A stretch of DNA of 22,278 nt from a virus. Location of the stretch: IMG/VR virus record IMGVR_UViG_3300012924_000030, positions 1 to 22,278 of that record. One strand, 5' to 3'. Shown one piece after another: positions 1,909 through 12,593 of the stretch. A program made the position numbers and the translations under genes. Within the stretch, counting starts at the first letter, position 1. Every line of letters begins with the position of its first letter. The notes under the pieces were generated by a model. The model was not told where the DNA came from. It searched no databases and saw nothing but the letters and a program-made list of their open reading frames with translations.

Positions 1909-1948
1909 GCCCTAACGGCATACACTCACGTTCGAGTCGTGAGGGGGC
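1909..1948 (+). ncRNA. 40-nt T-arm/acceptor-like RNA element, copy 1
   Basis: Outer stem GCCCT (1909-1913) pairs with GGGGC (1944-1948). The 11-nt linker is AACGGCATACA. Inner stem CTCACG (1925-1930) pairs with CGTGAG (1938-1943), and the loop is TTCGAGT (1931-1937), identical to a canonical tRNA T-loop. The two stems abut with no unpaired base at the 3' junction, as in the stacked acceptor/T helix of tRNA. No D-arm or anticodon arm is present. Confidence 0.8.
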
Positions 1949-1953
1949 ACTGA

Positions 1954-1975
1954 GGTCTCAGCGCAAGCTGAGACC
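1954..1975 (+). promoter_or_regulatory. Hairpin of intergenic module 1
   Basis: GGTCTCAGC (1954-1962) pairs perfectly with GCTGAGACC (1967-1975) around a GCAA loop, 5 nt after the 40-nt element. The Shine-Dalgarno of the next gene follows. No T tract is present, so it is not a classical terminator. Confidence 0.7.
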
Positions 1976-1995
1976 GCTAACAGGAAGAGGACATC

Positions 1996-2361
1996 ATGGC
2001 TATTCAGATCACCCCGGGAATCGTTGCCGCAGGCCTCACGGCCCTGGTGGCGCAAGAGGGTGAGGACTACGTCTACGAGCAAGGTGAGTCCGGTCGCTGC
2101 GACTACGTTCGCGACGGTAAGCCCTCCTGCATCATCGGCCGCTTCCTGGCCGACCTGGGGGTCTCCCTTGAGCGCCTGAAGCTCGCCGATGAGCCAGTCA
2201 GCGGTACCGCTGCGCTCACGCTCCTGGAGGAGCTTCAGGATGAGGGAGTCATCGATCCCCTCATCCTGAAGGTGATCAAAGCGCTCGGGACGGCCCAATG
2301 CAAGCAGGACAATGAGTACCCTTGGGGTGTGGCCGTTGAGTGCGCCCTAGAGGGGCTCTAA
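1996..2361 (+). CDS. Hypothetical phage protein, tandem paralogue A (121 aa)
   Basis: ATG preceded by GGAAGAGG. A near-duplicate of the gene at 2509: the first 10 residues are identical and the core aligns throughout (GEDYVYE, then CDYVR, PSCI(I/V)GRFLA, LGV, LERL, LLE.L..EGVID, and a WGVAV.EALE-like end). The CDYVR...SCIIGRFLA core slightly resembles the CCLGVLCDI segment of the protein at 5199, which could indicate one broad family. It is soluble and acidic, with no recognised catalytic motif. It lies between modules 1 and 2. Function unknown. Confidence 0.85.
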   Translation: MAIQITPGIVAAGLTALVAQEGEDYVYEQGESGRCDYVRDGKPSCIIGRFLADLGVSLERLKLADEPVSGTAALTLLEELQDEGVIDPLILKVIKALGTAQCKQDNEYPWGVAVECALEGL

Positions 2362-2371
2362 GCAAGATCCA

Positions 2372-2461
2372 GCCCCAAAGGCGGCGACGTGGCGTAGCTA
2401 CTAGCCTGTGGACGGCCCTTCGGGGCCCTCCTAGACATCCTGGTTCGAGTCCAGGAGGGGC
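2372..2461 (+). ncRNA. T-arm/acceptor-like RNA element, interrupted variant (copy 2)
   Basis: The 3' half matches the family: inner stem TCCTGG (2438-2443) with CCAGGA (2451-2456), loop TTCGAGT, then GGGGC (2457-2461). The 5' half GCCCC-AAAGGCGG (from 2372) aligns with GCCCT-AACGGCAT of copy 3 and pairs perfectly with GGGGC. About 50 nt is inserted between linker and inner stem, including a GGCCC-TTCG-GGGCC hairpin. An alternative compact pairing uses GCCCT at 2425-2429 (37 nt). At 90 nt it is as long as a class II tRNA, but I find no proper D or anticodon arm. Confidence 0.65.
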
Positions 2462-2466
2462 ACTGA

Positions 2467-2488
2467 GGCCTCAGCTTGCGCTGAGACC
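2467..2488 (+). promoter_or_regulatory. Hairpin of intergenic module 2
   Basis: GGCCTCAGC (2467-2475) pairs with GCTGAGACC (2480-2488) with one C-A mismatch and a TTGC loop. Compared with module 1 (loop GCAA) the tip is its reverse complement, as if the stem-loop tip had been inverted. The sequence after it up to the ATG is identical to module 1. Confidence 0.65.
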
Positions 2489-2508
2489 GCTAACAGGAAG
2501 AGGACATC

Positions 2509-2874
2509 ATGGCTATTCAGATCACCCCGGGAATCGTTGTTGCAGGCCTTAGGGACTTGGTGGTGCTCAAGGGTGAGGACTACGTCTATGAACCGGACGG
2601 CCGCGATCGCTGCGACTACGTTCGCAGCGGAGAGCCGTCGTGCATCGTCGGTCGATTCCTGGCGAACCTGGGGGTTCCCTTGGAGCGTCTGGAGAAGGCC
2701 GACGCCACCTACGGCGGTATCTCTGTAGGAACGCTCTTGGAGCAGCTTGAGGAAGAGGGGGTCATCGACCGCGTCAGCTTTAGGGCGACCCAAGTCCTCA
2801 GCAAGGTCCAGCACAGGCAGGACAGCGGCATCCCTTGGGGTGTGGCCGTCCAGGAAGCCCTAGAGGAGATCTAA
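2509..2874 (+). CDS. Hypothetical phage protein, tandem paralogue B (121 aa)
   Basis: Same length as the gene at 1996 and clearly homologous along its whole length. The stretch from about 25 nt upstream of the ATG through codon 9 is virtually identical, so the duplication included the translation-initiation region. The coding bodies have diverged substantially while conserving the GEDYVYE, CDYVR, PSC and GRFLA blocks. This argues that both copies are maintained. The DNA just after the stop (AAGCAAGATCCAGCCC) is also shared with copy A. Function unknown. Confidence 0.85.
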   Translation: MAIQITPGIVVAGLRDLVVLKGEDYVYEPDGRDRCDYVRSGEPSCIVGRFLANLGVPLERLEKADATYGGISVGTLLEQLEEEGVIDRVSFRATQVLSKVQHRQDSGIPWGVAVQEALEEI

Positions 2875-2884
2875 GCAAGATCCA

Positions 2885-2924
2885 GCCCTAACGGCATACG
2901 CTTCGGTTCGAGTCCGAAGGGGGC
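2885..2924 (+). ncRNA. 40-nt T-arm/acceptor-like RNA element, copy 3
   Basis: Outer stem GCCCT (2885-2889) with GGGGC (2920-2924); linker AACGGCATACG; inner stem CTTCGG (2901-2906) with CCGAAG (2914-2919); loop TTCGAGT (2907-2913). Compared with copy 1, four of the six inner base pairs are replaced, all with pairing kept, while loop, linker and outer stem are conserved. Confidence 0.8.
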
Positions 2925-2928
2925 ACTG

Positions 2929-2949
2929 AGGGCGCCGTAAGGGCGCCCT
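2929..2949 (+). promoter_or_regulatory. Hairpin of intergenic module 3
   Basis: AGGGCGCC (2929-2936) pairs with GGCGCCCT (2942-2949), loop GTAAG, 4 nt after the RNA element. The sequence is unrelated to module 1 but the position and stem length are similar. The start codon of the next gene follows 20 nt later. Confidence 0.65.
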
Positions 2950-2969
2950 TGAGGTAGGGGAGCAAGGAC

Positions 2970-3317
2970 ATGAACGCGTTCGATCTGGCTACCACCCTCC
3001 GCAGCATGGCTACCCATGAGGAGGGAGCCGTCAGTATCAGCGGAGCCAACATCCCCACAGAGGGCTATTTCGTAGGTGGCAAGTTCCCTCCGCTGATCTT
3101 CAAGGATGCGAGTGAGATCGACCCGGGCGAACTGGCCTGGTGGGTCGGTCGCAATCCTGCGGACTACTACGGCGCTTGGGATGATCCCAGCACCGGAGAG
3201 ATCCACTTCAACGGTGTTACCCACATGGGCTACCTGAGTACGGCGCTTGACCTGGCCAAGATTCGAGGTGTGCGTTCCGTGTGGGACATCGTGGCGGATG
3301 ATGAGATCCGCCTGTGA
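2970..3317 (+). CDS. Hypothetical protein (115 aa)
   Basis: ATG with an AAGGA-type ribosome-binding site 4 nt upstream. The product is soluble and acidic, with an N-terminal helix (FDLATTLRSMATHEEG), a Gly/Pro-rich beta region including GYFVGGKFPPLIF, a Trp-rich stretch (ELAWWVGRNPADYYGAWDDP) and a C-terminal helical part. I do not recognise the family and see no catalytic motif. The gene sits between modules 3 and 4 as a single-gene unit. Confidence 0.8.
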   Translation: MNAFDLATTLRSMATHEEGAVSISGANIPTEGYFVGGKFPPLIFKDASEIDPGELAWWVGRNPADYYGAWDDPSTGEIHFNGVTHMGYLSTALDLAKIRGVRSVWDIVADDEIRL

Positions 3318-3357
3318 CGCTCTCCTAGTCGATGACTTGTCTTGACTGGGGGAGACA

Positions 3358-3397
3358 GGGTGACCGGCAGACTTCAAGGTTCGAGTCCTTGACACCC
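3358..3397 (+). ncRNA. 40-nt T-arm/acceptor-like RNA element, copy 4
   Basis: Outer stem GGGTG (3358-3362) with CACCC (3393-3397); linker ACCGGCAGACT; inner stem TCAAGG (3374-3379) with CCTTGA (3387-3392); loop TTCGAGT (3380-3386). The outer stem is entirely different from copies 1 and 3 but still fully paired. Length, linker length and loop are unchanged. Confidence 0.8.
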
Positions 3398-3400
3398 GCT

Positions 3401-3425
3401 GAGAGCGCCCATAAGGGGCGCTCTC
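3401..3425 (+). promoter_or_regulatory. Hairpin of intergenic module 4
   Basis: GAGAGCGCCC (3401-3410) pairs perfectly with GGGCGCTCTC (3416-3425), 10 bp, loop ATAAG, 3 nt after the RNA element. The ribosome-binding site and ATG of the next gene follow. Confidence 0.7.
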
Positions 3426-3443
3426 TGGCTCACGGGAGTACTC

Positions 3444-3596
3444 ATGGAAGAGCTAGTAAAGCTCCTTCTCGAAGAGGCCGAGGCGGAAGAGCGTTTCTGC
3501 TGGTACGCCAGTGGCTACAGTGCCGAGTCAGGCGCCCTACAGGCGCTTGTCAAGGTGCTCGAACGCGTTCAACAACGCCTCAAGGATGGTGTGTAG
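3444..3596 (+). CDS. Small helical protein (50 aa)
   Basis: ATG preceded by GGGAG. The product is predicted to be almost all alpha-helical: an acidic first helix (EELVKLLLEEAEAEERF), a short turn with CWYASGYSAES, and a second basic helix (LQALVKVLERVQQRLKDG). The heptad-like Leu/Val spacing suggests a helical hairpin or oligomer. It ends 1 nt before the kinase-like gene at 3598, so the two are probably translated together. Function unknown. Confidence 0.7.
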   Translation: MEELVKLLLEEAEAEERFCWYASGYSAESGALQALVKVLERVQQRLKDGV

Positions 3597-3597
3597 C

Positions 3598-4083
3598 ATG
3601 CTCGGAACGATCGAAGAGGCTACGCTCATCCGTGACTGGCAGGTCGAACGCTTGAACGCGTTCGACTTTGACCGCTACGGAGAAGGACCCGAGGGCTGGA
3701 CCCGTGTCGGTACCGGCCTCAGCCGCGTGGCCTACCTGGCTCCATCTGGGGTGGTCTACAAGGTTCAGCTTCACGAAGTCTGCTACCAGACGAACAAAGG
3801 TGAAGCGAACGCGCTTCGCAGGTACTGGTTCACCAGGATGCCCAAAGGGTGTCGCCTCCCCCGCTTCCGGTTCTATGACCTGACTGGGGGTGGTGGTGGT
3901 GTGATGGCTATGGAGTACCTCGGTGCGCTCCTGCATCACTGTGAGCCCGAAGCCGAGAGGATCAGGCTCAAGGCCCTCCAGGGGGAACTCCAGGAGCTCA
4001 TGTGGGACGTCACCGACCTGCACTCCTGGAATCTGGCCGTCGATGAGGACGGCTTGCTGGTTCCTATCGACCTGGCTAGCTGA
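3598..4083 (+). CDS. Compact protein-kinase-fold protein (161 aa)
   Basis: ATG 1 nt after the preceding stop. Motifs of the protein-kinase/aminoglycoside-phosphotransferase fold appear in order: a Gly-rich loop (VGTGLSRVAYLA, about 37-48), a VAIK-like Lys (VVYKV, K55), an alpha-C-type Glu (GEANAL, E69), a hinge (VMAMEYLG, 102-109), a catalytic loop DLHSWN with Asp140 and Asn145 at HRDxxxxN spacing, and a DFG-like metal-binding Asp (VPIDLA, D158). The protein stops 3 residues after D158. It lacks the activation segment and most of the C-lobe, so it is far shorter than usual kinases (about 250 aa or more). It could be a minimal phosphotransferase or a pseudokinase-like binder. The fold call is inference from motifs. 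Confidence 0.65.
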   Translation: MLGTIEEATLIRDWQVERLNAFDFDRYGEGPEGWTRVGTGLSRVAYLAPSGVVYKVQLHEVCYQTNKGEANALRRYWFTRMPKGCRLPRFRFYDLTGGGGGVMAMEYLGALLHHCEPEAERIRLKALQGELQELMWDVTDLHSWNLAVDEDGLLVPIDLAS

Positions 4084-4091
4084 ACGGCAAG

Positions 4092-4131
4092 GGGTGAGCA
4101 GCACACATCGGGGTGCAAGTCCCTGACACCC
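4092..4131 (+). ncRNA. 40-nt T-arm/acceptor-like RNA element, copy 5
   Basis: Outer stem GGGTG (4092-4096) with CACCC (4127-4131); linker AGCAGCACACA; inner stem TCGGGG (4108-4113) with CCCTGA (4121-4126, one G-T wobble); loop TGCAAGT (4114-4120), a variant of the T-loop that keeps the first T and the final A-G-T. It begins 8 nt after the kinase-like gene ends. The 40-nt geometry is identical to copies 1, 3 and 4. Confidence 0.75.
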
Positions 4132-4134
4132 GCT

Positions 4135-4156
4135 GGTTTCGGCTCCTGCTGAAGCC
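4135..4156 (+). promoter_or_regulatory. Hairpin of intergenic module 5
   Basis: GGTTTCGGC (4135-4143) pairs with GCTGAAGCC (4148-4156): 9 pairs including two G-T wobbles, loop TCCT. It starts 3 nt after the RNA element, as in module 4. Confidence 0.6.
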
Positions 4157-6905: not shown

Positions 6906-7041
6906 GGGTAGAGATAGGTTAGCGTAGTCCCGTTCGATTCGGGATGTCCCCCTGGTTGGGGGTGTCGGGCTTGATTCCCGGCGAATAGGTAGGGGCACCG
7001 CCCCGTAGCCGCGCAGAGTGGTTCGACTCCACTCCTACCCA
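6906..7041 (+). ncRNA. Cluster of T-arm-like structures with tRNA-like ends
   Basis: Three T-arm-like stem-loops lie in 136 nt: TCCCG-TTCGATT-CGGGA (6928-6944), GTCGGG-CTTGATT-CCCGGC (6964-6982) and GAGTGG-TTCGACT-CCACTC (7016-7034). The third has a proper outer stem, GGTAG (6988-6992) with CTACC (7035-7039), stacked on a 6-bp T-stem as in the 40-nt family but with a 23-nt linker. Alternatively GGGTAG at 6906-6911 pairs with CTACCC (7035-7040), enclosing the whole cluster. A CCCCC-TGGTT-GGGGG hairpin (6948-6962) lies between the first two. No complete cloverleaf with an anticodon arm can be drawn. Likely tRNA-like elements or decayed tRNA genes. Confidence 0.6.
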
Positions 7042-8851: not shown

Positions 8852-9040
8852 ATGACTCACCCAGACATGCGTGAGCGCAAGCAGATCACCGTCAAGATGA
8901 CCGAACAGTTCGCGAAGGACCTGAACCTGATCTTCGCGACATACGGTAAGACCGATGTGTCATACGTAGTACGAGAGGGCATCTCAGCGCAGGCTGACTA
9001 CATACGCAGCCGTATCGCTGAGTCATACAAGGAGGTGTGA
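8852..9040 (+). CDS. Ribbon-helix-helix-like DNA-binding protein (62 aa)
   Basis: ATG with GGAAGG 9 nt upstream. The pattern is RHH-like: a beta strand (KQITVKMTEQ), helix A (FAKDLNLIFATYG), a short turn (KTDVS) and helix B (VVREGISAQADYIRSRIAESYKEV). RHH proteins dimerise and bind inverted repeats as repressors. It is divergent from the phosphoesterase, with the two starts 34 bp apart, so it may control that promoter. A perfect inverted repeat over its own stop codon (9035-9052) could also be its operator. Confidence 0.65.
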   Translation: MTHPDMRERKQITVKMTEQFAKDLNLIFATYGKTDVSYVVREGISAQADYIRSRIAESYKEV

Positions 9041-12508: not shown

Positions 12509-12530
12509 GGGCGCCCCTTCGGGGGCGCCT
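12509..12530 (+). terminator. GC hairpin before the tRNA-like element
   Basis: GGGCGCCCC (12509-12517) pairs with GGGGCGCCT (12522-12530), loop TTCG, nine pairs including one G-T. No T tract follows, so it is a weak terminator candidate and may instead be part of the adjacent RNA structure. In the 40-nt modules the hairpin lies downstream; here it lies upstream. Confidence 0.45.
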
Positions 12531-12534
12531 GCCA

Positions 12535-12592
12535 GGGCGCATGAACGTTGCGGGTTCAGGTAGCTGCTCCGGTTCGATCCCGGATGCGCCCA
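12535..12592 (+). ncRNA. 58-nt D-armless tRNA-like structure
   Basis: GGGCGCA (12535-12541) and TGCGCCC (12585-12591) form a perfect 7-bp acceptor-like stem with A12592 as discriminator. TGAAC (12542-12546) pairs with GTTCA (12554-12558) around a 7-nt loop GTTGCGG, which has T at position 33 and TGC in the anticodon position. After a 9-nt variable segment (GGTAGCTGC) comes a 5-bp T-stem TCCGG/CCGGA with loop TTCGATC. There is no D-arm. The 7+5 bp stacked helix has true tRNA dimensions. The G3-U70 identity pair of tRNA-Ala is absent (C70), so charging with Ala is unlikely. It ends 1 nt before a GTG start. Confidence 0.65.
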
Positions 12593-12593
12593 C

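Follow-up and report, generated by a model that had tools for sequence, protein, structure and literature searches.

Transcripts of animal mitochondria are organized by tRNA punctuation, in which functional transfer RNAs (tRNAs) lying between genes mark the cutting sites. In bacteria, transfer-messenger RNA (tmRNA) carries a tRNA-like domain that is a substrate of ribonuclease P (RNase P) and has an acceptor stem, a T-arm and a D-loop whose D-stem is reduced or absent, and the non-coding YrlA Y RNAs mimic the acceptor, D- and T-loops of tRNA. In plant mitochondria, the tRNA-like sequences known as t-elements are cut by RNase P and RNase Z (PMC11658184). RNase P also cuts substrates that consist only of an acceptor stem, a T-stem and a T-loop, and some phage RNAs and messenger RNAs (mRNAs) are cleaved by it (PMC11143913). 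Here we describe a 40-nucleotide (nt) intergenic RNA element, a candidate punctuation signal in phage operons, that an earlier note had picked out from the letters of a 22,278-nt virus record (IMG/VR record IMGVR_UViG_3300012924_000030, positions 1 to 22,278; the window). The nearest matched relatives of this 22-kb record are Streptomyces phages.

The note had reported four copies shaped like the T-arm/acceptor half of a tRNA, at 1909-1948, 2885-2924, 3358-3397 and 4092-4131, and both the sequences and their common geometry were borne out on re-reading. Each copy, all on the + strand, has a 5-base-pair (bp) outer stem, an 11-nt linker, a 6-bp inner stem and a 7-nt T-loop, and in all four the stems stack without a gap at the 3' junction. 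Copies 1 and 2 have the outer stem GCCCT/GGGGC (1909-1913 with 1944-1948 in copy 1), the T-loop TTCGAGT and the tail ACTG, with linkers AACGGCATACA and AACGGCATACG, inner stems CTCACG/CGTGAG and CTTCGG/CCGAAG, and scores of 53.8 and 54.1 bits, respectively. Copies 3 and 4 have the outer stem GGGTG/CACCC and the tail GCTG, with linkers ACCGGCAGACT and AGCAGCACACA, inner stems TCAAGG/CCTTGA and TCGGGG/CCCTGA, T-loops TTCGAGT and TGCAAGT, and scores of 56.4 and 42.7 bits. Copy 4 is alone among the window copies in having AG instead of GG in the linker and G instead of T at loop position 55. A fifth, expanded copy (2372-2461, + strand) had been overlooked; it reads GCCCC, the D-loop-like AAAGGC, an insert of about 50 nt that forms two hairpins, AGACA, TCCTGG, TTCGAGT, CCAGGA and GGGGC, followed by the tail ACTG, and the covariance model matches it at 2420-2465 (E 2e-4). 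It thus keeps the linker ends and T-arm of the standard form, the insert standing at the position of a tRNA anticodon arm. A descriptor scan of both strands found the layout with an 11-nt linker in none of 20 first-order Markov resamplings of the window, and this result, together with the stem-free search described below, rules out chance hairpins.

Covariation of the stems, which had been claimed from the four copies, holds in independent copies from other phages. Ten of the 11 pairs show changes on both sides in an alignment of 68 copies, in which the covariation score is 0.964 for the true partners and 0.13-0.21 when the partners are slid. An alignment of 97 copies agrees, scores across the two alignments being 0.96-0.99 versus 0.004-0.25. 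As both sets had been partly selected for pairing, we added a search with a pattern of linker and T-loop only, which left all outer-stem and five inner-stem positions free; all ten free positions were paired in 63 of its 71 unique matches, and the same pattern had no match on reversed sequence. Copy counts here and below are numbers of sequences, uncorrected for phylogeny. The T-loop (TTCGAGT or TTCGATT) and the linker GG are nearly invariant across the family, whose main subclass is an 11-bp stack with no gap at the 3' junction.

Two further regularities had gone unnoticed. The bases at linker positions 2 and 8 pair with each other in each of the four standard window copies (A-T, A-T, C-G and G-C) and in 64 of 68 copies of the family (AU in 34, CG in 21 and GC in 9, with 4 others), closing a five-base loop, N-G-G-Y-W, and linker positions 6-7 covary with T-loop base 59, CA going with G and TT with T in 63 of 65 copies; both of these latter states occur within single genomes. 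The 2-8 pair and its loop are, as we read the sequence, a D-arm reduced to one base pair and presenting GG. In tRNA, the GG of the D-loop docks into the T-loop. Given the pair around GG and the linker covariation with base 59, we interpret the element as a probable tRNA-elbow mimic in which the same docking would take place. Such an element would define the minimum of a natural tRNA elbow, namely 11 bp, a single D pair, GG and a T-loop, and bears on what tRNA enzymes truly require.

The same element is present in dozens of other phages. With copy 3 as the blastn query, sites about 85-90% identical were found in the Streptomyces phages Joe, Lika, Lannister, Hydra, Izzy and others, and among the matches listed (60 records) every one lies in unannotated intergenic DNA, at up to 7 places per record. 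Streptomyces phage RedBear also bears the element. Queries from copy 1 and later copies led to the Mycobacterium phages Cuke, Fowlmouth, MrMiyagi, Papyrus and its relatives, and Indlulamithi, to an M. abscessus prophage and to the Microbacterium phages Hubbs and LeeroyJenkins. By the count of covariance model R1, a Papyrus-like record has 13 copies, Cuke 10, another viral contig 8, Lika 7, Hubbs 2 and LeeroyJenkins 1; no copy was found in FlowerPower, the nearest relative by metallophosphoesterase. Many exact-pattern matches in viral contigs L040-L066 were dropped because the model did not confirm them. Copies that have diverged further are present in Mu-like Bacteroidota phages, namely a Tannerella forsythia prophage, an Elizabethkingia phage-like contig and Elizabethkingia phage TCUEAP3, in which the element comes immediately after a stop codon and ahead of the MuA gene. 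The spread covers phages of two bacterial phyla, actinobacterial and Bacteroidota. A search of about 395 Bacteroidota genomes returned the Tannerella copy alone, inside its Mu-like prophage, so the element looks phage-borne, and on this Bacteroidota survey we reject the idea that it is a host chromosomal element. We found no annotation covering the elements; a conserved structured RNA has gone unrecognized in annotated phages that are well studied, among them laboratory phages of Streptomyces and Mycobacterium smegmatis. The M. abscessus-type prophages L016, L022, L031 and L035, and also L015, carry 1-4 copies amid degenerate GGCAAGG/GGCTGGG-type repeats that make up a long non-coding stretch, and not in a normal gene gap.

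Does the element belong to a class that already has a name? The earlier note knew of none, and the searches agree: Rfam 15 had no match in the window at the gathering score, and searches of open-access literature on this class turned up no earlier description. Across 126 kb of element-bearing loci Rfam matched only GOLLD and two genuine tRNAs, leaving the elements unmatched. (The GOLLD giant RNA, RF02032 at 190 bits, lies in an unannotated gap of Mycobacterium phage Papyrus, L036 20838-21297.) ARAGORN called the elements neither tRNA nor tmRNA, and the Rfam tRNA model did not match them up to E=10. Conversely, our covariance model matched real tRNA genes only partially, at the T-arm, with an insignificant E of 0.3-1. 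These results dispose of ordinary tRNA genes missed by annotation, and the absence of an Rfam match disposes of a known Rfam element. A third candidate, the remnant of a tRNA 3' half at an attachment site, was rejected on the ground that the 5' acceptor strand is present and paired. The standard element shares with tRNA a T-arm with a TTCRANN-type loop, coaxial with the acceptor stem, and the GG of the D-loop; with its 11-nt linker and no anticodon arm it does not form a cloverleaf. As it qualifies neither as a tRNA or tmRNA nor as a terminator or a member of any Rfam family, we call it a new RNA family within the known kind "tRNA-like structure".

Comparison with the systems introduced above places the family more closely. 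Like the punctuating tRNAs of animal mitochondria, the phage elements are tRNA-shaped units between genes, but they cannot decode. At only 40 nt they lack the mRNA-like tag region of tmRNA and, with rare exceptions, have no encoded CCA, and compared with YrlA they have no Ro-binding Y stem in the 40-nt form and are placed in cis in operons, with many copies per genome. In their proposed working principle they resemble plant mitochondrial t-elements (PMC11658184), which are also tRNA-like structures at gene boundaries of polycistronic RNA, with a proposed role as processing signals and not as translating tRNAs. The phage elements share their position at gene ends within a polycistronic unit; they do not share homology to tRNA genes or a full tRNA-like secondary structure, few copies having extra arms, and they differ in their 40-nt size, in lacking an anticodon arm or multi-pair D-stem, in forming a covarying family and in residing in phage operons. 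The model hairpins used with RNase P are almost the same minimal substrate but are artificial and have no linker that mimics a D-loop, and the C4 antisense RNA of P1/P7 is a phage RNA processed by host RNase P but a single regulatory RNA and not a repeated intergenic element (PMC11143913).

Placement was scored for 57 elements against the gene tables of six annotated phages. The elements lie mostly within a block of small genes, share the strand of their operon (sense to the genes) and begin a median of 10 nt after the upstream stop codon (at most 19 nt in 48 of 56), the distance to the next start codon being looser (median 43). Gaps of at least 60 nt in these blocks hold an element in 51 of 63 cases, expanded forms uncounted. 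Downstream, 36 nt of sequence fold beyond shuffles (mean z -2.0, 72% below -1), and for the 36 nt upstream the mean z is -0.56. All five window copies have a stop codon before them and a separate hairpin within a few nt after them, all on the + strand. The stop codons of the upstream open reading frames are TAG at 1899-1901 (7 nt before copy 1), TAA at 2359-2361 (10 nt before copy 5), TAA at 2872-2874 (10 nt before copy 2), TGA at 3315-3317 (40 nt before copy 3) and TGA at 4081-4083 (8 nt before copy 4). Folding placed the hairpins at 1954-1975 after copy 1 (GGTCTCAGC-GCAA-GCTGAGACC), 2926-2953 after copy 2, 3401-3425 after copy 3 and 4135-4156 after copy 4; that after copy 5, at 2467-2488, is also an inverted repeat and has the stem of the first with the loop TTGC instead of GCAA.

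The edges of the element resemble those of tRNA genes. The first paired base (+1) is G in 57 of 65 copies, position 73 is a purine (A or G) in 60 and position 74 is C in 55, followed by T or G. Of 24 genuine tRNA genes compared, from FlowerPower, Cuke and Indlulamithi, 22 have C74, again mostly followed by T or G; the element, though unable to decode, thus has the same 3' flank as the tRNA genes that the phages themselves carry. In bacterial RNase P RNA, R73 pairs with U294 and the next C's with G293 and G292 (PMC12710915). Almost alone among the copies, the two at L019 1880-1928 and L020 75-123 have a complete ACCA tail encoded behind the outer stem.

We favor, with somewhat more confidence than doubt, the possibility that the elements serve as punctuation marks at which host RNase P and/or RNase Z cut, in the manner of plant mitochondrial t-elements. 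Our reasoning for this is the tRNA-like 3' flank, the contacts that RNase P makes with it (PMC12710915) and the minimal substrates that the enzyme accepts (PMC11143913). The processing or punctuation role suggested in the earlier note is likewise consistent with the stop-codon placement and the tRNA-like tail. In this model the element, as the smallest form of the tRNA recognition half (acceptor-like stem plus T-arm, with a one-bp D-arm whose GG would dock into the T-loop), would be taken for a pre-tRNA by RNase P at its 5' edge and/or RNase Z at its 3' edge, and the polycistronic transcript would be cut. The upstream message would end just past its own stop codon or keep the mini-tRNA as a 3' cap, and the downstream message would start with the separate hairpin, which would shield the new 5' end. 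A cut at the 3' edge would give both the cap upstream and the hairpin-led message downstream; with a cut at the 5' edge, the element would remain as a 5' structure. The docking, the cleavage, the identity of the cutting enzyme and the protective role of the ends are what we infer here. The presence of elements in phages of both phyla suggests a universal host factor. More tentatively, we propose as a possibility that this 40-nt mimic is a general punctuation system in phages of different phyla, through which host RNase P/Z cut most of the long gaps in small-gene operons, and that it would be the first tRNA-punctuation code outside organelles. If the elements are cut by these enzymes, bacterial viruses use a principle known from mitochondria to split one transcript into messages, which would suggest how gene dosage could be set in long phage operons that have few promoters.

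Several observations weigh against cutting. Position 75 is rarely C, and few copies encode CCA (ACC in 2 of 65); A predominates at position -1 (47 of 65), versus mostly T or C in the compared tRNA genes; and the stack of the main subclass is 11 bp versus 12 bp in tRNA, only a subclass with a sixth outer pair reaching 12 and the Bacteroidota-type copies having a bulge besides their 11 bp. The AT-rich Bacteroidota-type copies viewed showed no obvious strong hairpin downstream. Moreover, the tight link to stop codons could be equally compatible with translation termination, or with stability of mRNA 3' ends without any cutting. A rival reading is a stabilizing or insulating cap without cutting, in which element and hairpin block exonucleases or separate neighbouring translation and the tRNA likeness serves to bind a tRNA-binding protein. 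The anchoring to the stop codon and the strong second hairpin speak for such a cap, but a plain hairpin would suffice for it and the GG/T-loop elbow and tRNA-gene-like tail would go unexplained; we consider it unlikely. An element acting on terminating or re-initiating ribosomes would agree with a start that lies, at the median, near the footprint of a terminating ribosome, but the standard form has no anticodon arm, the spacing to the next start codon is looser and the tail is again unaccounted for, and we give this reading only a small chance.

Control of transcription, by a terminator or by an antitermination RNA that acts on RNA polymerase like the put RNA of HK022, would suit an RNA structure that recurs in operons with a GC-rich hairpin behind it. 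However, no run of five T occurs within 45 nt downstream of any of 65 copies, so the following hairpins are not classical terminators and a Rho-independent terminator (GC-rich hairpin plus U run) is rejected; the elements also stand at most gaps and not once per operon. The layout of put RNA is itself unlike that of the phage element, and this explanation is improbable. Several copies per genome and mimicry of the tRNA elbow would be expected of a decoy that acts in trans to titrate host tRNA enzymes or defences that target tRNA. The earlier note had raised a decoy as an alternative, but a decoy needs neither the single copy in each gap nor the constant sense orientation and anchoring to stop codons, with which it agrees poorly, and some phages have one copy only; we regard it as highly unlikely. 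Decayed tRNA genes, or a functionless, spreading selfish repeat, could account for copies expanded toward a fuller tRNA and for one truncated copy. Uniform geometry with compensatory changes over very different sequences nevertheless indicates selection on structure, and the copies do not share the flanking sequence of a mobile repeat, which makes this the sort of explanation that we hardly credit.

Some gaps are occupied by expanded relatives whose linker contains a hairpin or that have a real D-stem (L009:4562-4656, L009:7986-8048, L036:13519-13581, L038:5316-5365, L038:8974-9036 and L038:10299-10343), and these forms suggest descent from, or interchange with, fuller tRNA-like forms. In the relative at 8974-9036 of phage Indlulamithi (L038) the loop of the inserted hairpin, TTGAAAGA, resembles an anticodon loop (GAA). 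Phage RedBear carries a truncated element (L005 5005-5146), GGGTGACCGGCAGGCACCGAGGTTCGA followed by unrelated sequence, which is evidence that copies can decay.

Other structures were noted in the window. The first 1.1 kb or so of the record (1-1130) has no convincing genes and several GC-rich hairpins, e.g. CGCCCCTTGAGGGGGCG near 745. Between converging genes, directly after a strong hairpin, lies an intergenic structure of about 135 nt (6906-7040) that is closed by GGGTAG/CTACCC, contains three T-arm-like hairpins with the loops TTCGATT, CTTGATT and TTCGACT, and looks like a larger tRNA-like RNA. ARAGORN called a tRNA-Ala (UGC) at 12521-12593, directly between two genes; as 12535-12593 also reads as an acceptor/T-arm unit plus one other hairpin, without a clear cloverleaf, this may be another expanded relative. 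Finally, 1930-2229 and 2443-2742 are a tandem duplication (78% identical), each unit with the 3' half of an element, a hairpin and a gene of about 121 amino acids, and the hairpin loop is in opposite orientation in the second unit (GCAA versus TTGC).

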